DNA of 57,176 nt, from positions 1 through 57,176 of the forward strand of contig NZ_WIPH01000016.1 in assembly GCF_009547075.1 (NCBI RefSeq), written 5' to 3'. The notes under the pieces were generated by a model, which ran no database searches, had not been told where the DNA came from, and saw only the letters and a program-made list of their open reading frames with translations. A program made the position numbers and the translations under genes. Positions 4,564 through 46,165 of the stretch are shown here, one piece after another (the first letter of the stretch is position 1; each line of letters starts with the position of its first letter). This DNA is from Gluconobacter aidae. GTDB lineage: Bacteria > Pseudomonadota > Alphaproteobacteria > Acetobacterales > Acetobacteraceae.

Positions 4564-7479
4564 GTGAATTTCTCCAACCCCGCTTCACTGTCGTTTCCAG
4601 GGGCTGATCATCATCTGGCACAGCTTGCGCTTCTGCTGGCATCCGGAAAGTCAGAGGCCGAAACCTTCTCTCATCCTCAGGATCACATTTTTTTGACTGT
4701 CTGGCTGGCTATAATCCTGGCCGGGGAAAGAGAGCTTTCCGGCGGCCGGATCGAATGCGCTCCTCGCCTTGAGGCCCAGATACGTCCTGCACTTCGCACA
4801 ATGCTGGAAATACATTTTCCCCACAGCGATATCCGGATCGTTCCCCCCAGCGGCCGGAACGACGGAACCTGCCTGCCGCTGCTGTACCACATTACCGAAG
4901 TTTCGACGCACAGCCCTTCTGCTCGGCCAGTTCTCCAGATCGGCCCCAGTCATCCCGCAGGGTCCGTCACCTTGACCCCCGAAAGCGCCCTGATTGACGC
5001 AGGCGATTCACCCTTTCTGGGATTCCTGATATCTGAAACACCAGAAAGCCTCACCCTCCGTCGCAATATCAGGCTGCTGCTTGATGACAGTCGGAAAACC
5101 CACCTTCTGAGATCCCGGGTACAAACGATACAGAAGACATCACTCGAAAAAACACAGACCATCCAGGAACTCCGGGTCTCTCTGCGGATGCTCTCCGCAA
5201 GGACTACGCCTTTGCCGCGCCGGACACGACCGCCCGAGCAGACAGAACCGCCACCGATCGCCTCTCCCCATTCCAAACCGCCGGTTCCTGACGCGGTTTC
5301 GATACCTCCGCTCTGGTTCCGGGCTGGCCGCCGCCTCAAACGCATTCTTTGTCCTCCCCGTTCCCTCCCCCCGGTTCAGGAGAAAACCGATCCGGACGAG
5401 AACAGCGCCCCATTCTCTCCGGTCACGGCCCCAGAGGCAGAGGCAGAGGCAGAGGCAGGAGCAAAGCCTGTACCTTTCTTCGTACGCCGTGTGCTGTTCG
5501 TCGCGGGAGAACCCGACACGCCTGGCGTTCTATACCGTTGCTACCGGAATGCCGCAGCCGCACGGGATGCCGGCTTCGACGCCAGGGTCCAGTCCTGCGC
5601 CGCAGTCAGTTACGACGACATCCACTGGGCGGACGTCATGGTATTCTGGCGCGTCGAATACAGTGGCCATGTCAGTACGATTTTCGATCTCGCTGAAGCG
5701 GAAAACGTACTGACCGTCTTCGATGCGGACGATATTGTCTTCGTTCCCCATTATGCCCGCGTGGACATGATCGACGGCATCCGTTCGATTGGCGCCACGG
5801 AAGAGCGGATCGAACGCTGCTTCTCGGAAATGCGCCGCACCTTCCTGCGCTGCGATCAGGGATCGACGACCACCGCCGAGCTACTCTTCGCCATGCACAG
5901 CCTGCGTCCCGTCGTTCACCTGCTTCCAAACGTCTATGACACACTCTCCCTGAAACGGGCGCGCATGGCGCTGCGCATGCGTGGCGAGCCCGGCTGCGTC
6001 AACGCCGGCGACGGCCTGGTCCGGATCGGTTACGCCACAGGCTCCCGGACCCATCAGCGAGACTTCGCCCCCATCTGTCCCACCATCGCGGAAGTCCTGC
6101 GCCAGCGTCCCGAAGCACGTCTCGTCCTGTTCCGCGAGCCCGTCACCCATCGCCCGGTTCTGCTGATGGAAGAATTTCCCAGCCTGATCCCCGTGCAGGG
6201 CCAGATCGAATGGCGTGACATGGTTCCCCTTGAAGAACTGCAGGACGAGTTCGCACGCTTCGACATCTCTATCGCTCCCCTGGAGACGGGAAACGTCTTC
6301 TGTGAAGCCAAAAGCGAGATCAAGTTCTTCGAGGCCGCCCTCTCCGGCGCGGCGACAGTCGCCTCACCGACCGGACCGTTCCAGCGCGTCATCCGCCACG
6401 GCGAAACAGGATTTCTGGCTGACAGTCCAACGGACTGGTACGACGCCCTGGTCGCACTGATCGACAATCCGGAACGCCGCGTCCGCATGGCACGGGACGC
6501 CTATCATTCCGTCCTGTGGCCCTTCGGCCCACAGGCGCAGGCCCGGCGCATGAAGCTCGCCCTGACGTCCATGTCCGGAGACGAAGCCGCAGCCCTTGCC
6601 GGGGAAACACGTCTCGCCAGAGACCGTCTCGCTCCCTCCGCCCTTCCCGTCATCCCGGCCAGCCGTACCCTTTTCCATCATGACGCGCTGGGAGAAGCGT
6701 CCGTCACCGTCGTCATCACGTCCTATAATTATGAGGCGCATCTCCTCGACGCGCTGGAATCCGTCGCAGCACAGACCCTCCCCATTCTGGATCTGATTGT
6801 CGTGGATGATGGGTCCTCCGACGGCTCGGTTGTTCTGGCCCGCACGTGGATGGAACGGCATTGCGACCGCTTCAACCGCCTGATCCTGCGCCAATCCATG
6901 ACAAACGCAGGACTGGGCGGCGCACGGAATATCGGAATGGATGCAGCCGAAACTGTCCATGTCATGCAACTGGACGCCGACAATACCCTGCGCCCCGAAG
7001 CCTGCGAAACACTTCTGGCCTCCATGGATGACGGCACAGCCTATGCCTATCCGCTCATCGCCTGCTTCAACGAAAACGGCCCTGTCCTGATGGATATGAG
7101 TGCCGACATCCACCATCAGCCCGGCGCGCCAGAACTCCTGGGAGACCTGCCGTTCAACCCGCTTTCCCTCGTTTCCGGAAACCGCATCGATGCGATGGCC
7201 ATGGTCACCAAATGGGCCTGGGCCGCCGTGGGTGGCTACTATGTTTCACGTGAAGCAATGGGCTGGGAGGATTTCGATCTGTGGTGCTCACTGGCGGAAC
7301 GCGGCCTCCCCGGCCATCACGTCCCGCGGATCCTGGCCGATTACCGCCAGCATGAGACATCCATGACGAACGCCTCGACCGAAAAGGAAGCCCACAAGGC
7401 CCACGTCGTGGCATTTGTTCAGGCCAGACACCCCTGGATCCGCCTTAGCGCCGAACGGGCCAAACCCCGGAAAAGCTGA
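4564..7479 (+). CDS. Large glycosyltransferase with a GT-B-like module and a C-terminal GT2 module
   Basis: This is a 971-residue protein. The start is a GTG at 4564 with only a weak AGG upstream; no better start lies close. Residues 1-250 are unrecognised, followed by a low-complexity Glu-Ala and Pro-rich linker near 285-300. A GT-B-like module (about 305-670) carries FDISIAPLE and EIKFFEAA, the same signature as the first module of the divergent glycosyltransferase ending the window at base 1. From about 712 a GT2 (GT-A) domain follows, with VVITSYN, VVDDGSSDGS, a metal-binding LDADN and the GWEDFDLW acceptor-side motif. No membrane segment is seen, so it is probably cytoplasmic and acts on lipid- or protein-linked glycan. 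A parS-like site lies inside the coding sequence at 7242-7257. A strong terminator follows. Confidence 0.85.
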   Translation: MNFSNPASLSFPGADHHLAQLALLLASGKSEAETFSHPQDHIFLTVWLAIILAGERELSGGRIECAPRLEAQIRPALRTMLEIHFPHSDIRIVPPSGRNDGTCLPLLYHITEVSTHSPSARPVLQIGPSHPAGSVTLTPESALIDAGDSPFLGFLISETPESLTLRRNIRLLLDDSRKTHLLRSRVQTIQKTSLEKTQTIQELRVSLRMLSARTTPLPRRTRPPEQTEPPPIASPHSKPPVPDAVSIPPLWFRAGRRLKRILCPPRSLPPVQEKTDPDENSAPFSPVTAPEAEAEAEAGAKPVPFFVRRVLFVAGEPDTPGVLYRCYRNAAAARDAGFDARVQSCAAVSYDDIHWADVMVFWRVEYSGHVSTIFDLAEAENVLTVFDADDIVFVPHYARVDMIDGIRSIGATEERIERCFSEMRRTFLRCDQGSTTTAELLFAMHSLRPVVHLLPNVYDTLSLKRARMALRMRGEPGCVNAGDGLVRIGYATGSRTHQRDFAPICPTIAEVLRQRPEARLVLFREPVTHRPVLLMEEFPSLIPVQGQIEWRDMVPLEELQDEFARFDISIAPLETGNVFCEAKSEIKFFEAALSGAATVASPTGPFQRVIRHGETGFLADSPTDWYDALVALIDNPERRVRMARDAYHSVLWPFGPQAQARRMKLALTSMSGDEAAALAGETRLARDRLAPSALPVIPASRTLFHHDALGEASVTVVITSYNYEAHLLDALESVAAQTLPILDLIVVDDGSSDGSVVLARTWMERHCDRFNRLILRQSMTNAGLGGARNIGMDAAETVHVMQLDADNTLRPEACETLLASMDDGTAYAYPLIACFNENGPVLMDMSADIHHQPGAPELLGDLPFNPLSLVSGNRIDAMAMVTKWAWAAVGGYYVSREAMGWEDFDLWCSLAERGLPGHHVPRILADYRQHETSMTNASTEKEAHKAHVVAFVQARHPWIRLSAERAKPRKS
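5434..5458 (+). repeat. Four tandem copies of GAGGCA inside the glycosyltransferase gene
   Basis: GAGGCA is repeated four times from 5434 to 5457, in frame, encoding alternating Glu-Ala in the linker before the GT-B-like module. A six-base unit changes linker length without breaking the frame. Confidence 0.9.
7242..7257. other. parS-like site (one mismatch)
   Basis: TGTTTCACGTGAAGCA differs from the widely conserved chromosomal parS palindrome TGTTTCACGTGAAACA at one base. It lies inside the GT2 module of the glycosyltransferase gene. It is one of four such sites in the window. Confidence 0.6.
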
Positions 7480-7503
7480 GACCTCTTTCCCAGACCGTCC
7501 AAG

Positions 7504-7542
7504 AAAAAACCCGCTTCCGGACAGATCCGGAAGCGGGTTTTT
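7504..7542. terminator. Bidirectional terminator between converging genes
   Basis: A 13-base stem (AACCCGCTTCCGG paired with its complement) with a six-base loop is flanked by A-run and T-run. It serves the plus-strand glycosyltransferase and possibly the minus-strand aldehyde dehydrogenase. Confidence 0.9.
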
Positions 7543-7595
7543 CATGGCCTGAAAAGGTCGAACCGGGCTTCACAAAGAAGCCCGATACGCCTCAA

Positions 7596-8987
7596 TCAGA
7601 ACGGTGCATCGATATCAACGACGTCGATCAGCTTGTGATTGACGAATTCCTTGATGCCCAGACCGATCAGCTCACGGCCATAACCCGAACGGGCCACACC
7701 ACCGAACGGCAGATCAGCCTTCACCATCGTCGGATGGTTGATATAGACCATGCCCGTATAGATCTGCTCGGCAACCTTCACGCCGCGCTTCGTGTCCTTC
7801 GTAAAGACCGAACCACCCAGACCGAACGGCGAGTCATTGGCAATACGGATGGCATCCGCATCGTCCTTGGCACGATAGAGCTGCGTCACCGGGCCAAAGA
7901 ACTCCCACAGACGGGCTTCATTGTTCTCGTGCAGATTGGTCATCAGCAGCGGCTGGAAGAAAGCGCCCTTCGCCGGCACGGACGGGCCAATGGCCTCCAC
8001 AACCGCACCATGCTTCTTGGCTTCCTCGACCTGAGCCTTCAGATCGTCCGCCGCCTTCTGCGAGGACAGCGGCGCCAGCGTGGTCTTCGGGTCCATCGGA
8101 TCGCCCGGGATCAGCTTGGCGACTTCAGCCTTGTAAAGCTCCAGAAAGCGGTCATACACGGCATCCGCCACGATAAGACGCTTGGCGGAAACGCAGACCT
8201 GACCGGCATTCCAGTGACGGCCGAAAGCAGCCCACTTCGCGGTCTTTTCCAGATCCGCGTCGTCCAGAACGAGGAATGCGTCAGAACCACCCAGTTCCAT
8301 CGTGGACTTCTTCAGCGCCTGTGCGGCAATGCCTGCAACAACGGCGCCTGCCCCTTCGGACCCCGTGAGCGCCACGCCACAGACGCGCGGATCCTTGAGG
8401 ATCGTCTCGGTGTGATGACGGGCAGCATACAGATTGCGGAACCCACCCTTCGGCAGACCGGCTTCCTTCATCAGGTCATCGAACGCGGCAGCACACTGCG
8501 GCACGTTGGAAGCGTGCTTGAGAATGACCGTGTTACCGGCGGAAAGCTGCGGCGCAATGATGCGGGCAATCTGGTAGAACGGGAAGTTCCACGGCTCGAT
8601 CGCGAACACGATGCCCTGCGGCTGGTGGATCAGGACGGCCTCGCCTTCTTTCGGATCCGCAACCGGCAGCTTCTCGGCCTTCAGCAGATCTTCGGCGTTC
8701 TTGGCGTAATATTCGAAGATCTCGGCGGACAGGATCGTCTCGGCCTTGGCCTCGGCATAGATCTTGCCCATCTCAAGCGTCAGAAGCCTGGAATACTTGT
8801 CGATATCACGGCGAAGGATGTTCGCGGCTGCCGTCATGATCTTTGCGCGCTCGGCGAACGGCGCATGACGCCAGCTCTTGAACGCATCATAGGCTTCCGT
8901 CAGCGCGGTCTGGACTTCCTGGTCGGTTGCATCCGGGAAGGTCTTGAGCGTCTCACCGGTATAAGGGTTGATCGTAGCGTAAGCCAT
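7596..8987 (-). CDS. NAD(P)-dependent aldehyde dehydrogenase, succinate-semialdehyde dehydrogenase type
   Basis: This is a 463-residue protein with the complete aldehyde dehydrogenase fold. It has the cofactor region around PWNFPFYQIAR, the catalytic glutamate in MELGGSDAF and the catalytic cysteine in GQVCVSAKR. The start MAYATINPYTGE and its length match the short succinate-semialdehyde dehydrogenase subfamily (Sad/GabD2-like). It oxidises an aldehyde to the acid in the cytoplasm. Succinate semialdehyde is the likeliest substrate, but the subfamily is broad and the true substrate could be another small aldehyde. No GABA transaminase gene is adjacent. In acetic acid bacteria such soluble dehydrogenases also detoxify acetaldehyde-like compounds. 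Confidence 0.88.
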   Translation of the reverse strand: MAYATINPYTGETLKTFPDATDQEVQTALTEAYDAFKSWRHAPFAERAKIMTAAANILRRDIDKYSRLLTLEMGKIYAEAKAETILSAEIFEYYAKNAEDLLKAEKLPVADPKEGEAVLIHQPQGIVFAIEPWNFPFYQIARIIAPQLSAGNTVILKHASNVPQCAAAFDDLMKEAGLPKGGFRNLYAARHHTETILKDPRVCGVALTGSEGAGAVVAGIAAQALKKSTMELGGSDAFLVLDDADLEKTAKWAAFGRHWNAGQVCVSAKRLIVADAVYDRFLELYKAEVAKLIPGDPMDPKTTLAPLSSQKAADDLKAQVEEAKKHGAVVEAIGPSVPAKGAFFQPLLMTNLHENNEARLWEFFGPVTQLYRAKDDADAIRIANDSPFGLGGSVFTKDTKRGVKVAEQIYTGMVYINHPTMVKADLPFGGVARSGYGRELIGLGIKEFVNHKLIDVVDIDAPF

Positions 8988-9079
8988 GACGAGTCATGTT
9001 CCTATGTGGTGGCGGGTTTCCAACATATTGGCACGGATACGGCCAGACAAAACCCCCCACCCTCCTGCACATCAAAACT

Positions 9080-11113
9080 TCACGAATGTGTGTTCGTTTT
9101 AGGTACATTATCACAAAGTTCCGCAAGCCATGCCGTTGCCATGCCATCGGACGGCGCCCGCCAATCGCCCCGTGGGGAGAGAGACCCACCGGCAACCAGC
9201 TTCGGACCATTGGGCATGGCCGAGCGTTTGAACTGGCTTGTCCCGAAAAACCGCCGCAGAAACACCTCCAGCCAGTGCCTGATCTCGCCCAGATCGTAGG
9301 CAATCTTCCGGTCCTGCGGATAATGCTCGGGCCATGTTCCGCGGGATGCGTCGCTCCAGGCCACCTCCGCCAGGAACGCGATCCGTGACGGTCTGAAGCC
9401 GTGACGCAGAATATGATAAAGTGTGAAATCCTGAAGCGGATACGGCCCGATCGTCTGTTCCGTACTCTGAACGCCCTGTCCCATATCGGGCACAAGTTCC
9501 GGTGTGATCTCAGCGCTGACGATCCGTTCCAGAACCGGCCTCACGCCCTCACCCAGTTTTCCCTCACGCGCCAGCCAGCGGATAACGTGCTGGATCAGCG
9601 TCTTCGGCATCCCGGCATTGACGTTGTAATGGGACATCTGGTCCCCCACGCCATAGGTACACCAGCCCAGCGCCAGTTCCGACAGATCCCCCGTCCCGAT
9701 GACGATCCCGTTGCGGTAGTTGGCGATCCTGAACAGGAAATCCGTCCGCAGACCCGCCTGCACGTTCTCGAACGTAATGTCATGAACAGGCTGCCCCCCG
9801 GCGAAAGGATGGCCGATCCCCGCCAGCATCGTCTGAGCCGTCGGCCGGATATCCAGTTCGTTCACCTCAACGCCCAGCGCCTCCATGAGCGCATGAGCCA
9901 GCGAGCGGCTCTCCGTTCCCGTCGCAAAACCGGGCATGGTGTAGGCGAGAACATGCGTCCGCGGCCAGCCAAGCTCATCCGCCGCCCGCACCGCTACAAG
10001 GAGCGCCAGCGTACTGTCCAGGCCGCCTGAAACGCCGATCACAGCCCGCCGCGCCCCGCTCGCCTGCAAACGGCGACGCAGGGCGCTGACCTGAATGGTC
10101 CAGCCTTCATAGCAGTCCCGCGCCAGCGTCCGCGCATCGGACGGCACGAACGGAAACCGCACGACCTCCCGCTTCAGCCCCAGATCCGTCATGGGCGGCG
10201 CAAGCGTGAACCCAACGGTCCGGAACGCTTGGCCCGGCTGCCCGAACTGGCCCGTCCGCATCCGCTCCTGCCGCAGAAGATCCAGATCCACATCCGCCAC
10301 GACCAGACGCTCGCCCTGCGGAAAACGGTCCGACTGGGCCAGAAGCCGCCCGGCCTCATGGATCGAGACCTGCCCGTCCCAGGCCAAATCGGTCGTGGAC
10401 TCCCCTTCGCCCGCCGCCGCATAGGTATAGGCCGTCAGCGTCCGCATGGACTGCGCCTGACACAGAAGCGACCGGTCATCCGTCCGCCCGATCGTCACAG
10501 GCGACGCGGACGGATTGAGAATGACCGTCGCCCCCGCCTCCGCCAGCTTCCCGCTTGGCGGAGACGCCACCCACAGATCCTCACAGATCTCCACGCCCAG
10601 CGTCAGCCCGCGCATATCCTCGGCCTGGAACAGAAGATCCGTCCCGAACGGCACCTCTTCACCAAACAGCCGGATCGTCCCGGACGTCTGAAGCCCGGAC
10701 GTGAAATACCGTGGCTCGTAGAATTCCCGGTAGCGCGGCAGATGCGATTTCGGCACCACACCCAGAACCCGTCCGCGATGCACGGCCGCCGCACAGTTAT
10801 AAAGCAGATCCCCCCGCACCAGTGGCAGCCCCACAACCGCGACGGACAGCAGTTCCCGAGACCCCGCGACAACCTGCCGGAGCGCCTCGACCGCCCCGTC
10901 GAGCACCACATCCTGAAACCGCAGATCATCCAGCGTGTAGCCCGTCAGCCCCAGTTCCGGAAACACCACCGCCGCTACGCCCTGCCGGTCACAATCGCGC
11001 AGAACCCCCAGAACCCGCTCGCCATTCTTCAGCGGATCGGCAAGCGTCACCGGCAGCGTACAGGCCGCGATCCGGGCGAACCCCTGGTGATACAGGGAAC
11101 GGAACAGGGTCAT
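9080..11113 (-). CDS. nadE: Glutamine-dependent NAD+ synthetase
   Basis: This enzyme converts deamido-NAD+ to NAD+ with ATP and ammonia from glutamine. The N-terminal nitrilase-type amidase domain has its triad visible in VVFPELGLTGYT (Glu), PKSHLPRY (Lys) and VEICEDLW (Cys). The C-terminal synthetase domain has the ATP loop GVSGGLDST. The chosen ATG at 11113 has GGAGG seven bases upstream and gives 677 residues starting MTLFRSLYHQGFARIAACT, the normal start for the family. A longer in-frame reading from 11191 would add 26 unrelated residues. The gene is divergent from a small DUF1328 gene. Confidence 0.95.
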   Translation of the reverse strand: MTLFRSLYHQGFARIAACTLPVTLADPLKNGERVLGVLRDCDRQGVAAVVFPELGLTGYTLDDLRFQDVVLDGAVEALRQVVAGSRELLSVAVVGLPLVRGDLLYNCAAAVHRGRVLGVVPKSHLPRYREFYEPRYFTSGLQTSGTIRLFGEEVPFGTDLLFQAEDMRGLTLGVEICEDLWVASPPSGKLAEAGATVILNPSASPVTIGRTDDRSLLCQAQSMRTLTAYTYAAAGEGESTTDLAWDGQVSIHEAGRLLAQSDRFPQGERLVVADVDLDLLRQERMRTGQFGQPGQAFRTVGFTLAPPMTDLGLKREVVRFPFVPSDARTLARDCYEGWTIQVSALRRRLQASGARRAVIGVSGGLDSTLALLVAVRAADELGWPRTHVLAYTMPGFATGTESRSLAHALMEALGVEVNELDIRPTAQTMLAGIGHPFAGGQPVHDITFENVQAGLRTDFLFRIANYRNGIVIGTGDLSELALGWCTYGVGDQMSHYNVNAGMPKTLIQHVIRWLAREGKLGEGVRPVLERIVSAEITPELVPDMGQGVQSTEQTIGPYPLQDFTLYHILRHGFRPSRIAFLAEVAWSDASRGTWPEHYPQDRKIAYDLGEIRHWLEVFLRRFFGTSQFKRSAMPNGPKLVAGGSLSPRGDWRAPSDGMATAWLAELCDNVPKTNTHS

Positions 11114-11305
11114 GTTGGTCCTCCGGCAGGCAGGATGTCCGAACACAGGAATCCGACCCATGGAAATATCGACAAAGGGCTTCCCAGGCACAGCCCCCGC
11201 ATAAAACGGATGTTGCGAAAATGAACCTGTTCACTCCGCCGCCGTTCAGCCTTTTCACACCCCGCCTCTCCCTCAGAGGGTGCTACTGACAAAGGAGACA
11301 GTCCC

Positions 11306-11482
11306 ATGGACCTGCTACGCTGGACCATTGCCTTCCTTATCCTCGCCTTATGTGCCGCGGTGCTGGGCTTTGGCGGAATTTCGGCAGATTTTGCCTATAT
11401 CGGCAAGATCCTTTTCTTCATCTTCCTGGTGCTGCTGATTATCAGCCTCGTCTTCGGGCGCGGACGCGGCACGCGCCTCTGA
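11306..11482 (+). CDS. Small DUF1328 membrane protein (YtjA-like)
   Basis: This 58-residue protein starts [20 protein letters not shown] and has two membrane segments separated by [14 protein letters not shown], the pattern of the DUF1328 family. It ends with the basic tail [15 protein letters not shown] sits nine bases before the ATG. Family members are small inner-membrane proteins of unknown function, often linked to stress responses. It is transcribed away from nadE and converges on dsbB, whose stop is only ten bases beyond its own stop. Confidence 0.88.
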
Positions 11483-11491
11483 TCCCACCCC

Positions 11492-27689: not shown

Positions 27690-28853
27690 TTAAGAAAGGG
27701 CCTTTTCCAGCCGTTTCAAGGCCTCCCGCAGGATCTCCGGCTTTTTGCAGAACGCGAACCGGATCAGGTTCCGCGGCGCGACATCACCCTGCGGGTCATA
27801 GAAAGCCGAAACCGGGATCGTGGCCACACCCGCATGTTCCACCAGCCAGCGCGCGAATTCAACATCGCCCCGTCCGGCCGCATGACGCGAAATATCCGCC
27901 ACGATAAAATAACTGCCATCCGCAGGCAGCGTCTCAAAACCCAGCCGGTGCAGACCATCCCGCAGCAGATCCCGCCGTGTTTCCATCTGCGCCGACAGCC
28001 CTTCGTAATAGCTGTCATCCTTGTTCAGCCCGTAAGCCACGGCCCGCTGAAGGTTCGGAGCAGTTGCGAACACCAGAACCTGATGCGCCTTCGCCACCAC
28101 GGACGCCAGCGCCGCCGGTGCCGTCACATACCCGACTTTCCATCCCGTCAGGGAGAAGCTCTTGCCAGCGCTCCCGATCCGCATGCATCGCTCGCGCATC
28201 CCTGGCAGGGTCATCAGCGGGATGTGTTTCACGTGAAACGTCAGATGCTCGTAAACCTCGTCACAGATCGCATAGACATCATGCTCCCGCACCAGTTCCG
28301 CAATCAGCTCCAGCTCCTCGCGGACAAACACCTTCCCGGACGGGTTCATCGGTGAATTGAGCATGATCGCCTTGGTCTTCGGACCAAACGCGGCCCGAAG
28401 CTCCGCCTCCGGCACGGACCAGTGTGGCGGTGCAAGCCGCACACAGCGTGGCACCGCCCCCAGAAGCTTCAGAGCCGGCAGATAGGTGTCATAAAGCGGC
28501 TCGATCACCACCACCTCATCCCCCGGCTCCACGACCGCCATCAGACAAGCCGCCAGAGCTTCCGTCGCGCCGGACGTCACGACAACTTCCGCCGCAGGAT
28601 CGACCTCAAGCCCATAGAAACGCCGGCTGGACGCCGCCACAGCCTCACGCAGTTCCGGCAGGCCCGTCAGCGGCGCATACTGGTTGCGCCCGTCGCGCAA
28701 CGCATCCGCCGCGACCTGGATGATGTCCTGCGGCCCTTCCGTATCCGGGAATCCCTGCCCGAGATTGATCGCCCCATGCTTCACGGCAAGCTGTGACATA
28801 ATCGTGAAAATGGTCGTCGGAAGGCTCGCAAGATACTGATTGGGCGTTTTCAT
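27690..28853 (-). CDS. PLP-dependent aminotransferase, class I/II
   Basis: This 387-residue fold-type I aminotransferase has NLGQGFPDTEGP near the N-terminus, the VVVTSGATEAL cofactor block, LNSPMNPSGKV, and the pyridoxal lysine in GSAGKSFSLTGWKVGY. The tail carries NLIRFAFCKKPEIL. The closest families are methionine aminotransferase (YbdL) and kynurenine/glutamine transaminase; the substrate cannot be fixed from sequence. The ATG at 28853 is chosen over a TTG three bases before it. A parS-like site lies within the gene at 28225-28240. Confidence 0.85.
   Translation of the reverse strand: MKTPNQYLASLPTTIFTIMSQLAVKHGAINLGQGFPDTEGPQDIIQVAADALRDGRNQYAPLTGLPELREAVAASSRRFYGLEVDPAAEVVVTSGATEALAACLMAVVEPGDEVVVIEPLYDTYLPALKLLGAVPRCVRLAPPHWSVPEAELRAAFGPKTKAIMLNSPMNPSGKVFVREELELIAELVREHDVYAICDEVYEHLTFHVKHIPLMTLPGMRERCMRIGSAGKSFSLTGWKVGYVTAPAALASVVAKAHQVLVFATAPNLQRAVAYGLNKDDSYYEGLSAQMETRRDLLRDGLHRLGFETLPADGSYFIVADISRHAAGRGDVEFARWLVEHAGVATIPVSAFYDPQGDVAPRNLIRFAFCKKPEILREALKRLEKALS
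28225..28240. other. parS-like site (one mismatch)
   Basis: TGTTTCACGTGAAACG matches the parS palindrome TGTTTCACGTGAAACA except for the last base. It lies inside the aminotransferase gene, where on the minus strand it encodes the FHVKH stretch. Confidence 0.65.
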
Positions 28854-28972
28854 CAACGGATTCCAGAACTGACGGAAAACATAAAGCCCTGCACCATCGC
28901 AGGCTGAAGGAGCGCTGAAAAGCCTTTCGCACTCCCCTTCCGTTCCATAATGGAAATCCCGTCTCCCGCCCC

Positions 28973-32739: not shown

Positions 32740-32755
32740 CGTTTCATGTGAAACC
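32740..32755. other. Degenerate parS-like site (three mismatches)
   Basis: CGTTTCATGTGAAACC matches parS at 13 of 16 positions and keeps the GTTTCA and TGAAAC half-sites. It is intergenic, between the ABM gene and gcvP. Confidence 0.35.
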
Positions 32756-32868: not shown

Positions 32869-35724
32869 TCAGCCTTCCGCGTAAGTCGAAATATCCGGGC
32901 AGGAACAGACGAGGTTCCGGTCCCCCCAGGCATTGTCCAGACGCCCGACCGGCGACCAGTATTTGGACGTGTCCACACCGCCGGGGAAACACCCTGCCTC
33001 GCGGCTGTAGGAGCGGTCCCACGCGCCGGCCAGATCCGCCGTGGTATGCGGCGCAAACCGCAGAGGGCTGGCCTCCATCGCCACGCGCCCGGCTTCGACT
33101 TCGGCAATTTCCGCGCGAATGGCGATCATCGCATCGCAGAAGCGATCCAGCTCACCCTTGCCCTCGGATTCCGTCGGCTCGATCATGAATGTCCCCGCCA
33201 CCGGGAAACTGACCGTTGGCGCGTGGAACCCGTGGTCGATCAGACGCTTGGCGATATCGTCCACCGTCACGCCAACCGTGTCCTTCAGCGGCCGCAGATC
33301 CACGATGCATTCATGCGCCGTAAAGCCGTTCGTGCCGCGATACAGAACCGGATAATGCCCTTCCAGACGCGACGCGATGTAGTTCGCATTCAGGATCGCC
33401 ATCGTCGTCGCCTGACGCAGCCCCGCATCGCCCATCATCATGATGTAAGCCGCGGAAATCGGCAGAATGGACGCCGACCCATAAGGCGCCGCGGACACTG
33501 CAACCCCATGCTGCCCCGGCAGATAGGGTGCCAAGTGCTTGCCCACACCGATCGGCCCCATGCCCGGGCCGCCGCCACCATGCGGAATGCAGAACGTCTT
33601 GTGCAGGTTGAAATGCGAGACATCCGCGCCATACAGACCCGGACGTGCCAGCCCAACCTGCGCATTGAGGTTCGCGCCATCCAGATAGACCTGACCACCC
33701 GCCTCATGGACAAGCTCGCAGATCTCGACGATCCGCTCCTCGAACACGCCATGCGTGGACGGATACGTAATCATGATAGCCGCCACGCGCCCGTCATGCT
33801 GCGCGATCCTGGTCTTCAGATCCTCGACATCGACATTGCCGTTCTCGTCACAGGCCACAACGACAACCCGCATCCCGACCATCTGCGCCGAAGCCGGGTT
33901 GGTCCCATGTGCGGAAGCCGGAATCAGGCAGACGTCGCGATTTTCGTCCCCACGCGCGCGGTGATAGCCACGGATCGCCAGAAGTCCGGCATACTCACCC
34001 TGCGCGCCGGAGTTCGGCTGAAGCGACACGGCGTCATACCCCGAAATCGCACAGAGCGCACGCTCCAGATACGCGAACAGTTCGGCATAACCCTGAACCT
34101 GATCGGCGGGCGCGAACGGATGAATCCGCGAAAATTCTGGCCAGGTGATGGGGATCATCTCCGCCGTCGCATTGAGCTTCATGGTGCAGGAACCCAGCGG
34201 GATCATCGTGCGATCCAGCGCCAGATCCTTGTCCGCCAGCGCCCGCATATAGCGCAGCAGATCCGTTTCGGAACGGTGTGCATGGAACACAGGATGCGTC
34301 AGCAGCGGAGCCGTCCGCGACAGCCCCTCCGGCAGCGCATCCGTCACATCCAGCGCCTGCTCGACAGAGGCCAGATCCGCGCCCTCACCCGCGAACGCCG
34401 CCCAGACCGCACGGATCGTCTCCGGCGTCGTGGTCTCGTCACAGGACACACCGATCCGACCATCGCCCGCATCGCGCAGATTGATGCCGGATGCCACGGC
34501 CCGCGCCAGAACCTGCGGTGCGGACTCGCCAGCCTGAACGGTGATGGTATCGAAAAACACCTCCGTCTCGACGCTCGCACCCAGAGTCTTCAGCCCGGCG
34601 GACAGGATCGCCGCCATCCGGTGCGTGCGTGCGGCAATGGCCTTCAGACCTTCCGGCCCGTGATAAACCGCGTACATGGAGGCGATGATCGCCAGCAGCG
34701 CCTGCGCCGTGCAGATGTTGGATGTCGCCTTTTCGCGGCGGATATGCTGCTCGCGCGTCTGAAGCGCCAGACGATAGGCGGGCTTGCCCGCACTGTCGCG
34801 CGACACCCCGACCAGACGCCCCGGCATGTGCCGCTTGAACGCATCGCGCGTCGCCATGAACGCCGCATGCGGGCCACCAGCCCCCATCGGCACGCCATAA
34901 CGCTGCATCGAGCCGATCGCGATATCCGCACCCAGCGCGCCCGGGCTTTCCAGCAGCACCAACGCCAGCGGATCACAGGCCAGAGCCGCGATCGCACCCT
35001 TTTCATGCAGCGCCGCGATCACGCCGCGCAGATCCCGCACCTGCCCCGAAGACCCCGGATAGGACAGCAGCGCGCCAAAAACGGAAGACGCATCCAGATC
35101 CGTCTCCGGATCGCCCACCACAACATCCCAGCCCAGCGGCTCAGCGCGTGTGCGGATTACGGCAACCGTCTGCGGATGCGTGTCGGCATCCACAAAGAAC
35201 GCCGTCGCCTTCGATTTACCCACACGCTGCGCCAGTGCCATGGCTTCCGCACAGGCCGTGCCCTCGTCCAGCAGGGACGCATTGGCGATGTCCAGCCCCG
35301 TCAGATCCGCCACCAGCGTCTGGAAGTTCAGCAGCGCCTCAAGACGCCCCTGGCTGATTTCGGGCTGATACGGCGTATAGGCCGTATACCAAGCCGGATT
35401 TTCGAGAATGTTCCGCTGGATGACCGGCGGCAGAACCGTATCGTAATAGCCCTGCCCGATCATGGATGTCAGAACCTGATTGCGCGAGGCGATCTGCCGC
35501 AGACGCACGAGCGCATCCTGCTCGGTCAGGGCCGCGCCGATCCCGTGATCCCCGCGATCGAGAATGGCGGCCGGAATGGTCCGGTCGATCAGGTCATCGA
35601 GACTGGACGCGCCAACGACCCGCAGCATCTCCCCGATTTCGGAAGGACGCGGGCCGATATGGCGGGAGCTGAAATCTTCGGTCTGGGCAGGCCACAAGGT
35701 CGTCACAGGCAGGTTCTCTGGCAT
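32869..35724 (-). CDS. gcvP: Glycine dehydrogenase (decarboxylating), P-protein
   Basis: This is the P subunit of the glycine cleavage system: it decarboxylates glycine with pyridoxal phosphate and loads the aminomethyl group on GcvH lipoate. The single long chain (951 residues from the ATG at 35724) is the homodimeric type. The N-terminal half starts [17 protein letters not shown]. The C-terminal half holds the cofactor lysine in [17 protein letters not shown] and [12 protein letters not shown]. An in-frame TTG at 35796 is an unlikely start. Ribosome site is weak, consistent with coupling to gcvH 76 bases upstream. It ends the riboswitch-controlled gcvT-gcvH-gcvP operon. Confidence 0.96.
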
Positions 35725-35800
35725 TTCATGAAAGCAGTGGCGGAAATCGGGAGCAGGCTGAAAGAAAAACGGGGCCTGCCAGCGCAGACCCCGCAAGCCC

Positions 35801-37330: not shown

Positions 37331-37414
37331 ACGAAAAAGCCCGGTCCATTCTCTCTAAAGACGTGAAGATGCAGACGCCCCCGGCACCACGCGGAACGCG
37401 GCCGGAAAAAACGT

Positions 37415-37572
37415 CGCCCCTTCTGTCCTTTCGCCTGAGATCGCTATCCCGTCGGCGGATGCGGCGCGCGCACCTCTCTCCAGAATGTCCTGACCGCCTC
37501 GGTCCTTTGGCCTGAGAGTTTCCGGGGCGGTTGCTCCTTCGGCGCCAGCCTCTCGGCCGGTCTCTCCCGTGT
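37415..37572 (-). promoter_or_regulatory. Tandem glycine riboswitch before gcvT
   Basis: Two glycine aptamers lie in series on the minus strand. The 5' aptamer (about 37496-37572) has GGGAGAGACC, CGCCGAAGGAGCAA and ACTCTCAGGCCAAAGGACCG. The 3' aptamer (about 37415-37492) has CTGGAGAGAGG, CCGACGGGATAGCGA and TCTCAGGCGAAAGGACAG. The order and spacing are those of the known class. Riboswitches in this position normally switch glycine cleavage on when glycine is plentiful. The exact expression platform, between the second aptamer and the gcvT start, is not clear to me. Confidence 0.95.
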
Positions 37573-37670
37573 CGGTCGCCCCGATCCTGCCAGTTTCCGG
37601 AAAACTCCGCAATCGTTACGATCGCTCATGCGTTGTCTCTTCTGACCTTAAATGCATGAAGGAAAATCCC

Positions 37671-37976: not shown

Positions 37977-38258
37977 ATGCGTCTTTCAAGCACGAAACGC
38001 CTCCTCGCCATCACCCTCCTGTGCGGCACGGTTTCCGCCTGCGCTTCCCATCCGCAGCACAATCCCGAAGCCCATCTGATCGGTATCCCCAATCCTGCCA
38101 GCGTCTATTGCACCCAGCATGGTGGCCGACACAGCGATGTGCGGAGTGCCGGCGGCGAGACGGGTGTCTGCCTCCTGCCGCCCAATCAGGTCTGTGATGA
38201 ATGGGTCCTGTTCCGCGAAAAGCGCTGCGTGGCGCCACTGGCGAAGATGGAACCCTGA
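37977..38258 (+). CDS. DUF333 lipoprotein
   Basis: This 93-residue precursor has a lipoprotein signal with the lipobox VSAC (cysteine 22). One DUF333 domain follows: NPASVYCTQHGGR, GETGVCLLPPNQVCDEW and FREKRCV. Domain cysteines may form disulfides. DUF333 proteins are small envelope proteins of unknown function, sometimes labelled putative hemolysins without evidence. It starts three bases after the ABM gene and probably shares its transcript. Confidence 0.85.
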   Translation: MRLSSTKRLLAITLLCGTVSACASHPQHNPEAHLIGIPNPASVYCTQHGGRHSDVRSAGGETGVCLLPPNQVCDEWVLFREKRCVAPLAKMEP

Positions 38259-38272
38259 CCACGGCCTGGCGA

Positions 38273-38307
38273 CAAAAAAACCGGGCAGGAAAAAATCCTG
38301 CCCGGCT
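38273..38307 (-). terminator. Rho-independent terminator of speE
   Basis: CCGGGCAGGA pairs perfectly with TCCTGCCCGG, with a run of seven T on the minus strand directly after. On the plus strand the downstream T-run is poor, so it mainly serves speE. Confidence 0.85.
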
Positions 38308-38336
38308 CTTCAGACGTCCCCGGAACCAGGGCCCCC

Positions 38337-39209: not shown

Positions 39210-39239
39210 GGATCATCGTTTCCTTGTGGGATGATATTG

Positions 39240-39267
39240 AAAAAGGACCGGTTTCACCCGGCCCTTT
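39240..39267 (-). terminator. Hairpin with T-run between speD and speE
   Basis: On the minus strand AAAGGGCCGG pairs with CCGGTCCTTT (one G-U pair), followed by more T. It could end part of the speD transcripts before speE. Confidence 0.6.
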
Positions 39268-39274
39268 CGTCAGT

Positions 39275-39754
39275 TCAGGCAGCCTGTGCGGCCTTCTCCT
39301 GCACGCGACCGCGCCGTACGGCGTCGACCTCGACCCGGCCGGCCTGGAACAGGCGCTGCATCACCGGAATCGACAGGTTCGGATCACACACACCGCACAT
39401 GAACACGTCCACAGCCGCATAATTCCGTTCCGGCCACGTATGGATCGAGATATGGCTTTCCGCCAGCACGATCACGCCGGACACACCACCATTGGGCGTG
39501 AAGTGATGAAAATGGCTGTGCAGGATCGTGGCACCAGCCGCCACGGCAGCTTCACACAGCGTCTCGTCAATCCGCATCGGGTCGTCGAGATTCCGGGCAT
39601 CCCAGAAATCGATCAGCAGGTGATTGCCGGCAAAACGCTCGCCATCACGCTCAATGAAGTAATCCTTGCGCTCATCCTCGACGAAGTGAGCGGCGCTGTT
39701 CTGGATATCTCTCGGGAGTTCCGATACCATCCCCAGTTGAGCAAGTGCGTTCAT
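39275..39754 (-). CDS. speD: S-adenosylmethionine decarboxylase
   Basis: This pyruvoyl enzyme makes the aminopropyl donor for spermidine. The proenzyme cleaves itself between Glu99 and Ser100 in LAESHISIHTWPE, and Ser100 becomes the pyruvoyl group. Catalytic HFHHF and FMCGVCDPN are also present. At 159 residues it is somewhat longer than the short bacterial class (about 130), with about 25 extra N-terminal residues. The ATG at 39754 follows GGGGG at six bases; a GTG three bases before it is less likely. Its leader contains a dyad and a hairpin. Confidence 0.93.
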   Translation of the reverse strand: MNALAQLGMVSELPRDIQNSAAHFVEDERKDYFIERDGERFAGNHLLIDFWDARNLDDPMRIDETLCEAAVAAGATILHSHFHHFTPNGGVSGVIVLAESHISIHTWPERNYAAVDVFMCGVCDPNLSIPVMQRLFQAGRVEVDAVRRGRVQEKAAQAA

Positions 39755-40060
39755 CACGTACCCCCAAACCAGTAGACAGCCTGTTGGGCAAAATTGCCCC
39801 CTTGGGCCAAGAAGCGCGCTAGTTAGCGGCCCCTCCCCCCCGATGCAAGCACTTTATGGGGTAATTCCCCAATATGTCACATATCTCCGTCATCTCATGT
39901 TCCCACTGCATGAGAAACGGGTTTTCCCTTTCCTGTACACAGGGCTGAGACACGGAACTTTCCTGAATATCCCACGGCAAATACAGTTCGGGCGCCGGAT
40001 CGCCGGGAAACGAATCCCGGAAATCCCGACGCCCGAAAGAAGCCGAGGCTTCCCCGTTCC
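39755..40060 (-). promoter_or_regulatory. speD leader and candidate promoter
   Basis: On the minus strand GTGACA (39875-39880) and CATAAA (39853-39858) are spaced 16 bases apart. TGGGGTAATTCCCCA, a near-perfect dyad (39857-39871), fills the spacer. The predicted leader of about 90 bases contains GGGCC/GGCCC and GGGCA/TGCCC stems between 39790 and 39830. The rest of this gap, up to the ilvC terminator, shows no gene. Confidence 0.45.
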
Positions 40061-40079
40061 AAAGGGCCGAATCCGGCCC
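40061..40079 (-). terminator. Rho-independent terminator of ilvC
   Basis: GGGCCG pairs with CGGCCC across a four-base loop and is followed by TTT on the minus strand, 17 bases beyond the ilvC stop. Confidence 0.6.
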
Positions 40080-40095
40080 CTCAGAATTAGTCCGA

Positions 40096-41641
<1,546 letters not shown>

Positions 41642-41642
<1 letters not shown>

Positions 41643-43435
41643 CAGACCAGCATCTTCCCTTCTTCGGTCAGTCCCGCCGCTTCGGAATCCTGATCCGGAC
41701 CCAGCAGCATCTGGTTATGCGCCGCACCCGACGGGATCATCGGATAGCAGTTCTCGCCTTCGGCCACGCAGATATCGGCCACGACCGGCCCGTCATGCGC
41801 CAGCATCCGGCGGATCACGTCATCCAGCTCACCCACATGCGTCGCCCGCATCCCGGTCGCGTGGAACGCTTCGGCCAGCTTCACGAAGTCCGGCAGCGCC
41901 TCGCTGTAGGACTGTGAATAGCGCGACCCGTGAAGCAGTTCCTGCCACTGACGGACCATGCCCATATAATGGTTGTTCAGGATGAAGATCTTCACCGGCA
42001 GGCGATACTGCGCGATCGTCCCCAGTTCCTGAATGTTCATGAGCGTGGACGCCTCACCGGCGATGTCGATCACCAGCGCATCCGGATGCGCCACCTGCGC
42101 GCCCACGGCCGCCGGCAGACCATAGCCCATCGTCCCCAGCCCACCCGACGTCAGCCAGCGGTTCGGCCTGTCGAACTGGAAGTGCTGGGCCGCCCACATC
42201 TGGTGCTGTCCGACCTCGGTGGACACGAACGTATCCCGTCCCGTCTCCTTCGCCAGTTCATACAGACGACGAACAGCATGCTGCGGACGGATGATGGCGG
42301 ACGGCGTCATGTCCTGCGTGAAGCCGAACCCGTCCACACTCCGCCAGGACGCAATCTGGTTCCACCAGGTGGACAGATCCGGCGCAGGCGTATCGCCCCA
42401 GGCTTCCAGCAGGGCTTCGAGCGTATCGCGCACATCGCCTTCGATCCGCACATCCACCGGCACGATCTTGTCGATCTGGCTGGGGTCGATATCGGCATGA
42501 ACCTTGAACGAATTGGGCGAGAACGCATCCACACGCCCCGTCACGCGGTCATCGAAACGCGACCCCAGCGCAATCAGCAGATCACAGCCATGCGTGGCCA
42601 TGTTCGCCTCGACCGATCCGTGCATCCCCAGCATGCCCAGAAACTGCGGATCGGGAGACGGAAACGCGCCCAGCCCCATCAGCGTGGACGTCACCGGGAA
42701 ACCGGTCTTGCGCGCCAGACGACGCAGCAGCTCCGACGCTTCCGGCCCGGAATTGATGATGCCACCACCCGTATAGAAAAGCGGGCGCTTGGCCGTCTTT
42801 ATCGCCTCGACGGTCCGCGCGATCGCCTCCGCATCCGGCCCACCCTGATGGCTCAGACGCCGCAACCGCGACAGCGCAGGCTTCGTCAGTGGCGCCTTGC
42901 CGACCGTGATGTCCTTGGGGAGATCCACCAGAACCGGCCCCGGACGGCCAGAACGCGCGACTTCGAACGCCTCACGCACGGTCTGCGCCAGCGCCCCCGG
43001 CTCCCGCACGAGGTAGTTGTGCTTGGTCGCAGGACGCGTGATGCCCGTCGTATCGGCTTCCTGAAACGCATCATTGCCGATCAGCTTGGTCGGCACCTGA
43101 CCCGACAGGCAGACGAGCGGGATGGAATCCATCAGCGCATCCATCAGCCCGGTCACGGCATTGGTCGCACCCGGCCCCGACGTCACCAGAACCACGCCAA
43201 CCTTGCCCGTCGAGCGCGCATAAGCTTCGGCAGCATGAACGGCGGCCTGCTCGTGACGCACAAGAATGTGTCGAATCCGGTCCTGCCTGAAAAGAGCATC
43301 GTAAATCGGAAGGACAGCCCCACCCGGATATCCGAATATGACCTCCACACCCTCTTCATCGAGAACGCGCAGAAGCACCTCCGCGCCATTCAGCGCCTCA
43401 TTGCCTGTTCCTGCGTCTCTTTCAGCAGCCGTCAC
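41642..43435 (-). CDS. ilvB: Acetolactate synthase large (catalytic) subunit
   Basis: This thiamine-diphosphate enzyme condenses two pyruvates, or pyruvate and 2-oxobutyrate, for branched-chain amino acids. The 597-residue protein has the catalytic glutamate in RHEQAAVHAAEAYAR, the FAD region GSRFDDRVTGR, and the cofactor motif that starts with VIDIAGEAS and continues to FILNNHYMGM. The GTG at 43435 has a very strong site, GGGAGGAAACG. It lies 30 bases downstream of miaA and leads ilvB-ilvH-ilvC. Confidence 0.95.
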
Positions 43436-43465
43436 CGTTTCCTCCCAAGGTATGAGCGGCGGGAT

Positions 43466-44458
43466 TTAGGACGCCCGCGCAGCGACGTCAACTCGTTCCG
43501 ATATAAAGTTCTCTATTTTTTCATACTGACTTTCCGAATCTTGCGCAGAATTGGTATATCTACGCAACAAAATCATCGCATCCTCACCCTTTCCCAGCGC
43601 ATGATGCCGGAACCATGTCGCCTGCCGCCGCGTATAGCGCCCAATGGCAAGGACCGCGGATTTCCGTGCCTCCTCAAACGTCACATCCCCTCGCAGAACG
43701 GCCGCCAGTTCGGGCACGCCATGCGCACGCATGGCAGGCAGAACCGGATCGAGCCCCCGCTCCAGCAGATGCGACACTTCGTCCAGAGCCCCGGCCTCCA
43801 GCATCTGCCCGAATCTGGAATCGATTGCCCGGCGCAGACCATCCCTCTCCGGGTCCAGCCGAACGGATACGAACCGACAGGAAGCAGGCGGCAGCCCCGG
43901 CTGCGACCGCCACCAGGCCAGCCCATGCCCCGTCCCCGTCCAGACCTCCCAGGCCCGCGAAATCCGCTGCGTGTCGTTCGGACGCAGACCAGACGCCGTC
44001 TCGGGATCAACCTGCATCAGCCGCGCATGCAGCGCCTCCGGCCCGATCTCCTCCGCCAGAGTCCGCGCTTTGGTCCGCGCCGCATCGCCGGGGTCCGGCA
44101 CCTCCACCAGACCATCTGTCAGCGCCCGCAGATACATCCCCGTCCCGCCACACAGGATCGGCAGACGCCCCACGGCCCAAGCCTCGTCCATCTCCCGCAG
44201 CGCCTCGGACCGCCACCAGGCCACACTGCCCGGCACGGCCGCATCCAGCACGCCATAAAGCCGGTGTGGCACAGCGGCTTCGTCAGCCTCGTCGGGCCGG
44301 GCCGTCAGAATCCGCAGATCACGATAGACCTGCATGGAATCCGCATTGATGACCGTGCCGCCAAAGGTCCGGGCAAGGTCGAGCGCCAGTGCCGACTTGC
44401 CGGAGCACGTCGGGCCAGCCACAATGAGCGCGGTTTTTATTATCTTCGGGGCGTTCAT
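43466..44458 (-). CDS. miaA: tRNA dimethylallyltransferase
   Basis: This enzyme adds the isopentenyl group to A37 of tRNAs that read codons starting with U. The 330-residue protein begins MNAPKIIKTALIVAGPTCSG, containing the P-loop GPTCSGKSA. It continues with INADSMQVYRDL, ILCGGTGMYLRAL and TRRQATWFRHH. GGAGGGGAG lies just before the ATG at 44458; an in-frame start 18 bases earlier is less likely. It is divergent from serB across 41 bases and is the first gene of the set that continues with ilvB, ilvH and ilvC. Confidence 0.95.
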   Translation of the reverse strand: MNAPKIIKTALIVAGPTCSGKSALALDLARTFGGTVINADSMQVYRDLRILTARPDEADEAAVPHRLYGVLDAAVPGSVAWWRSEALREMDEAWAVGRLPILCGGTGMYLRALTDGLVEVPDPGDAARTKARTLAEEIGPEALHARLMQVDPETASGLRPNDTQRISRAWEVWTGTGHGLAWWRSQPGLPPASCRFVSVRLDPERDGLRRAIDSRFGQMLEAGALDEVSHLLERGLDPVLPAMRAHGVPELAAVLRGDVTFEEARKSAVLAIGRYTRRQATWFRHHALGKGEDAMILLRRYTNSAQDSESQYEKIENFISERVDVAARAS

Positions 44459-44499
44459 TCTCCCCTCCTGCCACACGCGCCGGACCGTTACGAGAGCCC

Positions 44500-45393
44500 A
44501 TGTCCCTTCCTGCCGTCCTGACCCTTATCGCCGACCGGGAATCCGGTCCCCTCAAACCCGAGGCCATCGACATGGCCCGCGCGCTCGTCAAGGGCAACGC
44601 GCCCATCGTCCTGTCTCCGGGCGAAGCGGTCGACATTCCCTGCCCACCGCCACGCCCCGGATCGGCCAACATCACTACGATCCGCGCAACGCTTGCGCCC
44701 TACCGCGTCGATGCGCTGCTTCTCAAGACACGCGGCCGCCGCCGGGCCATCCTCGTCGCGGACATGGACAGCACCATCGTCACCGGCGAGACGCTGGACG
44801 AACTGGCGGACCTTCTGGGCTGCGGCGAAGAGGTCGCGGCCATCACCCGCGCCTCGATGAACGGTGAACTCGATTTCGAAACCGCGCTCGAACAGCGCGT
44901 GGCCCTTCTGGCCGGAAAACCGGCTTCGGTTCTCGAACAGGTCTGGGAGTCCGTCACCCTGACGGAAGGCGCGCGCGAACTCGTGCAGACCATGCGCAAA
45001 CACAACGGTCGCACGGCCCTCGTATCGGGCGGGTTCACATGGTTCACCCAGCGCGTGGCCGAACTCTGCGGATTCGACGAGAATTACGGCAATGAACTGG
45101 AAATCGCAGACGGCAGAATCACCGGCCATCTCGCTGGCCCGATCCTCGGCCCCGACGCCAAACGCGACCATCTCGAACGCCTGACGGCCGAGCGCGGCGT
45201 GCAGCTTCGTGCGGCACTGACGACAGGCGACGGCGCCAACGACATCCCGATGCTCGCCAGTGCCGGCCTCGGTCTGGCCTTCCACGCCAAGCCGAATGTC
45301 CGCCGCATCATTTCCACACAGATCAACTTCGCCAGCCTGCGCGCGCATCTCTTCGCACAGGGTTATCACGCGCGGGACTTTGTCACCGACTAA
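44500..45393 (+). CDS. serB: Phosphoserine phosphatase
   Basis: This HAD phosphatase makes the last step of serine synthesis. The 297-residue protein has about 80 N-terminal residues of an ACT-like domain, then the nucleophile in VADMDSTIVTGE (near residue 87). SGGFTWFTQRVAELCGFDE and the magnesium motif TTGDGANDIPML follow. Length and domain order match proteobacterial SerB. Serine feeds glycine and one-carbon metabolism, relevant to the nearby glycine cleavage operon. A bidirectional terminator follows. Confidence 0.95.
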   Translation: MSLPAVLTLIADRESGPLKPEAIDMARALVKGNAPIVLSPGEAVDIPCPPPRPGSANITTIRATLAPYRVDALLLKTRGRRRAILVADMDSTIVTGETLDELADLLGCGEEVAAITRASMNGELDFETALEQRVALLAGKPASVLEQVWESVTLTEGARELVQTMRKHNGRTALVSGGFTWFTQRVAELCGFDENYGNELEIADGRITGHLAGPILGPDAKRDHLERLTAERGVQLRAALTTGDGANDIPMLASAGLGLAFHAKPNVRRIISTQINFASLRAHLFAQGYHARDFVTD

Positions 45394-45417
45394 CCGGACA
45401 TCCGCAGCACCAGAAAC

Positions 45418-45456
45418 GAAAAAGCCGCCGAAGTCCTGAACTCCGGCGGCTTTTTT
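45418..45456. terminator. Bidirectional terminator between serB and the glycine-rich gene
   Basis: AAAAAGCCGCCGGAG-type arms (GCCGCCG with CGGCGGC) enclose a loop and are flanked by A-run and T-run, so both converging genes can use it. Confidence 0.88.
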
Positions 45457-45459
45457 CGA

Positions 45460-46059
45460 TCAGTATCCCCAGGTGTAGGGCGGCACACCCGAATAGGACG
45501 GGGCGGCGTAATAACCGGGAGCATAGCCCGGCGCATATCCATAACCGCTGTAGCCGCCATAGCCATAAGGCGAGGCCACAGCCATTCCGGCCGCCATGCC
45601 AAGACCGACGCCAAGGCCCCAGCCGCCCCAGCCCCAGCCGCCGCCCCAGCCCGGCATGCCCCAGCCGTAACCGAACCAGCCTGGACCGCCCCAGCCGTTC
45701 CAGCCACCCCAGCCCGGATAACCCCAGCCACCAAAGCGCGGGCCACCCCAGCCACCGCCCCAGCCGCCGCCACGGAAACCCCAGCCAGGACGGCCCCCGC
45801 CATAACCGCCTCCCCAGCCACCACGATAACCGCCGCCGGGACCACCACGGAATCCGCCGCCGCCCATGCCGCCGGGCCCCATGCCACCTCCATGGAAACC
45901 GCCACCACCCATGCCACCGCCGCCATGGAAGCCACCGCCTCCACCACCGCCATGCCCGCCACCTCCGCCGCCGCCATGCTGGGCAAAGGCAGGAAGAGAA
46001 ATCGAGGACGCCAGCAGGGCCAGCATCAGTGCGGCAGCGGGTCTGTGTGCAAAGGTCAT
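45460..46059 (-). CDS. Exported glycine-rich protein
   Basis: This 199-residue precursor has a signal peptide (residues about 1-28, ending LPAFAQ). Almost half of the mature part is glycine: first GGGGHGGGG-type His/Gly runs, then Gly/Trp/Tyr/Phe repeats such as GGWGGGWGGPR. A short Ala/Gly hydrophobic segment (LGVGLGMAAGMAVA) and a Tyr/Pro/Gly tail follow. AGGAG lies seven bases before the ATG at 46059. I do not recognise a specific family. The His/Gly runs could bind metal and the Gly/aromatic repeats could be an envelope or matrix material. It may be a low-complexity surface protein. Confidence 0.8.
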   Translation of the reverse strand: MTFAHRPAAALMLALLASSISLPAFAQHGGGGGGGHGGGGGGGFHGGGGMGGGGFHGGGMGPGGMGGGGFRGGPGGGYRGGWGGGYGGGRPGWGFRGGGWGGGWGGPRFGGWGYPGWGGWNGWGGPGWFGYGWGMPGWGGGWGWGGWGLGVGLGMAAGMAVASPYGYGGYSGYGYAPGYAPGYYAAPSYSGVPPYTWGY

Positions 46060-46149
46060 GGCAAGTCTCCTGTGGGAAAGCCTGATCATTTTCCCATATC
46101 GGCATTATCAGATCGCGTGAGAAGGTGGCTTTCCCATGACGAAACAACT

Positions 46150-46165
46150 TGTTTCACGTGAAACA
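46150..46165. other. Perfect parS palindrome
   Basis: TGTTTCACGTGAAACA matches the widely conserved bacterial chromosomal parS consensus at all 16 positions. It lies between the dciA stop (46172) and the glycine-rich gene. ParB is expected to load here. Confidence 0.85.

Follow-up and report, generated by a model that had tools for sequence, protein, structure and literature searches.

The window analysed here is the whole of contig C36, 57,176 nucleotides long, of a draft Gluconobacter aidae genome (127 contigs, 3.004 Mb). It contains four parS-like palindromes, candidate binding sites for ParB, which we number S1 to S4 and list with the genes around them in Table 1. Scored against the 16-bp palindromic parS consensus TGTTTCACGTGAAACA, the palindromes have 0, 1, 1 and 3 mismatches, and S3, the most divergent, qualifies as a parS site only through its orthologues. 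A sequence-only reading of this DNA had pointed to palindromes at 7242, 28225, 32740 and 46150, with one mismatch in the first two and none in the last; we find all four as written and the counts correct, and the site at 32740, which was given no count, has three. Three of the four sites are centred on CACGTG and the fourth on CATGTG. A pattern search of the whole window returned no other match with up to three mismatches, and 100 dinucleotide shuffles of the window gave a mean of 0.21 such sites and a maximum of two, never four.

Table 1. parS-like sites and neighbouring genes in the window
Feature	Position	Strand	Sequence or assignment	Context
S1	7242..7257	+	TGTTTCACGTGAAGCA, 1 mismatch	Within glycosyltransferase gene, codons for Y-V-S-R-E-A
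S2	28225..28240	-	CGTTTCACGTGAAACA on gene strand, 1 mismatch	Within aminotransferase gene, codons for T-F-H-V-K-H
S3	32740..32755	+	CGTTTCATGTGAAACC, 3 mismatches	Intergenic, downstream of gcvP
S4	46150..46165	+	TGTTTCACGTGAAACA, 0 mismatches	Intergenic, 6 bp after the DciA-like gene's stop codon
Glycosyltransferase gene (group 1 and family 2 domains)	4564..7479	+	Pfam Glycos_transf_2 and Glyco_trans_1_4 above cut-off	Carries S1 near its 3' end
Class I/II aminotransferase gene	27690..28856	-	NF006488 above cut-off	Carries S2
gcvP (glycine dehydrogenase)	32869..35796	-	TIGR00461 above cut-off	Flanks S3
HAD-family protein	44500-45393		Pfam; SerB-like by our reading	
DciA-like gene	46172..46873	-	PF05258	Flanks S4

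Searching the whole genome with up to two mismatches, we found five sites, three on C36 (7242, 28225 and 46150) and two on contig C106 (97943 and 100229). The reversed consensus, used as a control at the same threshold, had no match in this genome; elsewhere it had none with up to one mismatch in 60 genomes, and with up to two it matched once in one relative (G007); in a set of 120 genomes it matched once (G086). One of the C106 sites, S6, occupies codons 3-8 of rsmG, and the other, S5, lies inside an open frame (99823-101142) that we take to be mnmE from its position and sequence. In the relative G021 all five sites are on one contig, to which the last base of the window maps at 89564 and base 32 of the reversed C106 at 89561; by this synteny C36 and C106 abut. 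With the contigs so joined, all six sites fall within about 65 kb on one chromosome arm. C106 also carries, at 95710-97407, parB (TIGR00180 above cut-off) and a parA-like gene, beside rsmG and mnmG, so that the cognate parAB lies in the same region as the sites. None of the 25 families shown for the parA-like gene reached its own cut-off; the parB product gives the best ParB_N match of the genome (C106 96190-96471, 116.7 bits), the three others scoring 45.3 bits or less. Every one of the five genomic sites therefore lies on the window contig or on the abutting contig with the chromosomal parB, and not evenly scattered around the genome, the pattern that the sequence-only reading had held would speak against it; compared with GC (guanine-cytosine) skew and parAB, as that reading had proposed, the sites prove to be clustered, beside parB. 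From these observations we consider it very probable that all four palindromes belong, as chromosomal parS sites, to a Gluconobacter ParABS system and form the outer part of a single origin-proximal centromere zone, and we predict that they are bound by ParB, S3 weakly if at all.

The HAD-family protein at 44500-45393 shares 93-97% identity with its counterparts in G. albidus, G. sphaericus, G. kanchanaburiensis, G. potus and Gluconobacter sp. Dm-62, and 83% with that of G. cerinus. Together with 25 relatives (G001-G025), the window's genome makes up a set of 26 Gluconobacter genomes, in which gene alignment served to assign the orthologues of S1 and S2, and order and spacing those at the other positions. 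The set contains 125 sites with up to one mismatch, of which 121 fall at six positions: S5 in 26 of 26 genomes, S4 in 22 (that of G005, at 1000889, assigned by position only, its flank not aligning), S2 in 21, with two mismatches in the remaining five, S1 in 20 and, with two mismatches, in one more, S6 in 20, and S3 in 12, with two or three mismatches in eight more, including the window's own. The other four sites lie 7-48 kb from one of the six positions, about 7 kb from S5 in G005 and about 44-48 kb beyond the rsmG site in G001, G009 and G012. A search with up to two mismatches, which covered 14 of the 26 genomes, found further sites in G012 (1170173) and on contig C3 of G006 (16338). Sites with up to one mismatch number 5 per genome by median and 4.81 by mean in Gluconobacter (n = 26), against a median of 2 and a mean of 1.77 in other members of the family (n = 117), 7 of which have four or more.

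Proximity to the replication origin was judged by GC skew together with hemE-maf, the usual neighbourhood of the origin (oriC) in alphaproteobacteria. Skew was sampled in two relatives with two-contig assemblies, over about 815 kb of a 2.477-Mb contig in G012 and 540 kb of a 2.163-Mb contig in G005. It switches from negative to positive, with a cumulative minimum at 1.052 Mb in G012 and 0.969 Mb in G005, in each case within about 1.5 kb of hemE-maf, and parB lies at 1.115 and 0.979 Mb, respectively. All four sites of G012 with up to one mismatch are at 1.099-1.158 Mb (59 kb), 47-106 kb from the skew minimum, and all five of G005 are at 0.981-1.032 Mb (51 kb), 12-63 kb from it; under uniform placement, arcs this short would arise with probabilities of about 5e-5 and 1.5e-6, respectively. 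By both measures the sites cluster near the origin rather than being scattered, and the claim of the sequence-only reading that the window belongs to an origin-proximal centromere zone gains support from these clusters, 12-106 kb from the minimum. In the window's own genome hemE-maf is at about 80.3-80.6 kb of C106, in the form of a partly read hemE and a Maf-like gene, both below the NCBIfam cut-offs. If hemE-maf marks oriC and the contigs do abut, the six sites lie on one arm at distances of 17.5, 19.8, 43.7, 57.1, 61.6 and 82.6 kb from it, and the GC skew of the window is negative in every 4-kb step, as expected for a single chromosome arm. DnaA boxes give mixed evidence: the one cluster of three boxes in 600 bp in G005 (968631-968738) sits at the skew minimum, there is none at the minimum in G012 and most other stretches, and three-box clusters occur elsewhere in C106 and G007.

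Conservation of the sites appears to act on the DNA rather than on the protein, judging from the codons of S1 and S2, the alignment columns of S3 and S4 and the outgroup proteins, and this bears on the alternative that the four sites are not all functional, the gene-internal S1 and S2 and the three-mismatch S3 being chance or protein-driven look-alikes, which we regard as unlikely. S2 is present in all 26 Gluconobacter genomes: the codons ACG, CAC, GTG and AAA are identical throughout, phenylalanine is encoded by TTT or, in the five genomes with two mismatches, by TTC, and the neighbouring codons vary. The windows covering S2 are the top two of 302 for synonymous conservation (307 codons with a conserved residue). 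For outgroups we searched 30 genomes around G026, of which 18 yielded an aminotransferase passing E 1e-100 (15 within the family, 3 outside it). None of these 18 homologues contains S2, and their residues at its position differ, 12 having D-W where Gluconobacter has H-V; the protein thus does not demand the S2 sequence, which argues against a protein-driven look-alike.

At S1, the codons TAT GTT TCA CGT GAA GCA are identical in 21 genomes, with the exception of one GCC for GCA, and the S1 window ranks first of 459 for synonymous conservation (464 scored codons). The gene was not found in G006 (best E 1.2e-8), and four genomes of one clade (G001, G009, G012 and G022) have other codons at the site, reading YVSREA, YVSRDA or YVSKDA. 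Since these four keep nearly the same residues without the DNA site, some protein constraint does exist, as the look-alike explanation supposes; against it stand the codons fixed in 21 genomes and the fact that one of the four, G022, encodes the identical six residues with other codons, one or two residues being changed in the other three.

The intergenic sites stand out from their surroundings, S4 columns being conserved at 0.984 compared with 0.797 for the flanks (22 rows, of which one is misaligned, the aligned flank taking in the 3' end of the DciA-like gene) and S3 columns at 0.979 compared with 0.662 (20 rows, G015 being left out at a contig end), but most of these rows were picked on account of a site already detected by the pattern search, and the values thus describe a contrast with the flanks and not a frequency. 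This is one of several points that weigh against our interpretation. S3 has three mismatches to the consensus, and in Pseudomonas aeruginosa, where ParB binds TGTTCCACGTGGAACA or ...ACC, sites with two mismatches were not enriched in vivo (PMC5098823); for this reason S3 may be inactive in this strain, which again favours the view that only some sites work. The window's copy is the most degraded of the 20 aligned, the 19 others having one or two mismatches, and it is a weakened copy of a site better preserved in the relatives, which counts against a chance look-alike even if the window's own S3 may well be weak. Among the sites with up to two mismatches, three lie on contigs without a cluster (G006 C5, G022 C1 and G023 C1) and two in G005 lie left of the origin (11 and 108 kb). 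The genome being a draft, the junction of C36 and C106, and with it the distances measured across it, depends on synteny with one relative. The skew minimum coincides with hemE-maf in G005, G006, G012 and G013 (G008 is ambiguous), and in the window's own genome, G003, G007, G011, G016 and G021 it lies about 12-37 kb beyond hemE-maf. Finally, dnaA is at base 412 in G012 and 415 in G005, about 1 Mb away from the skew minimum and, assuming circular contigs, within roughly 0.3 Mb of the opposite skew switch; in the window's genome (G000:C1:236945) the skew around dnaA is near zero. We therefore rejected dnaA as a proxy for oriC, and with dnaA some 1 Mb from the sites, near oriC does not here mean near dnaA, in contrast to two Acetobacter genome papers which predict oriC near dnaA (PMC3751514, PMC13209655).

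The palindromes might instead belong to another DNA-binding protein, a Noc-like paralogue of ParB or some other regulator, which we think very unlikely. The genome does encode the three further ParB_N matches, and the chromosomal ParB itself scores 209.5 bits on the NCBIfam Noc model, below the cut-off of 315. It carries three Pfam ParB domains and a GERRWRA motif, the GERR part of which we presume to be CTP (cytidine triphosphate)-binding, and its best match in the PDB is Caulobacter ParB (6t1f, E 1.4e-64). In our reading of the alignment to 6t1f, the four positions that distinguish specificity for parS from that for Noc sites are occupied by R, T, N and G, and R173 and G201 are kept, both of which are described as absolutely conserved in ParB orthologues (PMC7383237). 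The Noc site has a different consensus, TATTTCCCGGGAAATA, according to the same paper; with cores of CACGTG or CATGTG here, and R, T, N, G in place of the Q/K/K/R of Noc, identification as Noc sites was rejected. The protein with these residues is also the one that far outscores the other ParB_N matches and adjoins two of the sites. Also against this alternative, S1, S2 and both C106 sites lie in coding frames. That the sites mark a plasmid or an integrated element is barely credible: the genome is a draft and the other ParB_N matches may be plasmid-borne, but the window carries gcvP and the DciA-like gene, and most of the region maps to the 2.16-Mb (G005) and 2.48-Mb (G012) contigs.

In the origin-proximal parS zone that we favour, S5 and S6, on the adjoining contig beside parB, would complete the set of six, which lies 17.5-83 kb from hemE-maf. 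By analogy with well-studied ParABS systems, ParB would most likely load on parS as a CTP-dependent clamp and then spread onto neighbouring DNA; ParA would move the ParB complex poleward, and ParB would recruit SMC. We expect S4 to be strong, S1 and S2 good, and S3 weak or unbound; S4 and the mnmE and rsmG sites would be the likely main loading sites, with S1 and S2 as additional ones. Nucleation of ParB on parS, its association with neighbouring DNA, movement of the complex by ParA and recruitment of SMC are all described in PMC7333895.

As a ParABS centromere zone the system is ordinary, and its sites outnumber the family median. It resembles that of Caulobacter crescentus, a member of the same class with the same 16-bp consensus and a one-arm cluster near the origin, whose ParB is also the closest solved structure to the Gluconobacter protein. 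Its dispersed origin-proximal sites are similar in spacing to the Spo0J/parS sites of Bacillus subtilis, though host and gene contexts differ. Unlike the six sites over about 65 kb in Gluconobacter, the five strongest Caulobacter sites are packed into 5 kb at about 8 kb from the origin; in B. subtilis the four strongest are separated by about 5, 13 and 39 kb (PMC5815017). P. aeruginosa, with parS1-10, offers a further parallel: four sites near oriC are bound in vivo (PMC5098823), and nine of the ten predicted sites are most likely coding (PMC4368675), so that parS inside coding sequence is already known. What seems less described is the freezing of codons across a genus, the change of residues when a site is born and the loss of a site where its gene has moved; our literature search, conducted mostly without subscription papers, turned up no study that deals with parS in Gluconobacter, with synonymous constraint on parS or with these three points.

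More tentatively, and with slightly more doubt than belief, we propose that the Gluconobacter centromere spread into protein genes and edited them, with chromosomal position deciding which sites are born, kept or lost. S2 would have arisen in the ancestor of the genus together with residue changes, its codons then being frozen in 26 genomes, and S1 would have been erased in the clade that lacks it, whose gene, as measured in G012 only, sits on the other arm at about 854 kb, a distance of 198 kb from the skew minimum; in the other three genomes of that clade the gene is on a contig without any site. The G012 gene was matched as two separate frames (C1:853541-855525). In a tree of the aminotransferase gene with the site codons excluded, the S1-less clade is sister to G005 (support 83) and lies with it within a larger clade (support 93) whose other members are S1-bearing; given this nesting, loss of S1 is the simpler reading, on a one-gene tree. 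Of the 21 S1-bearing genomes, 16 have the S1 gene on the same contig as another site; the other five (G010, G017, G018, G020 and G025) have it on a different contig, where we infer its place, which lowered our confidence in the proposal slightly. The S1-less clade is also without an S3 or S4 site at up to one or two mismatches, and an additional site past parB is present in three of its four genomes. G012 retains the S3 and S4 flanks, at about 28-43 kb from its skew minimum; this weakens the idea that relocation alone causes sites to be lost, and turnover appears to take place inside the zone as well.

If the proposal holds, birth and loss of sites by position would be a natural version of the experiments that define permissive zones for parS. 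Raw sequence is enough to recognise a centromere zone, and the 26 genomes form a set with fixed, gained and lost sites in which a gain inside a gene and a loss can each be assigned to a branch of a tree. PMC5815017 and PMC7333895 call it an open question by what route parS clusters expand and why they stay clustered, and the set would allow this to be tested by comparison.

Some minor features of the region can be added. At about 45-80 kb of C106, skew like that of the right arm persists for about 12-37 kb past hemE-maf and is weak farther on, while gene order past hemE-maf in the window's clade agrees with that of G013, whose skew minimum is at hemE-maf; the shifted minimum of the clade may reflect an origin shift or an old rearrangement. 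A frame at C106 42356-44512, putatively like a phage or plasmid primase, lies near both the AT-richest stretch and the skew minimum of that contig. The DciA-like gene next to S4 presumably belongs to a helicase loader family. On the minus strand of the window, at 37413-37579, a tandem pair of glycine riboswitch aptamers precedes a frame that we name gcvT-like and gcvP.

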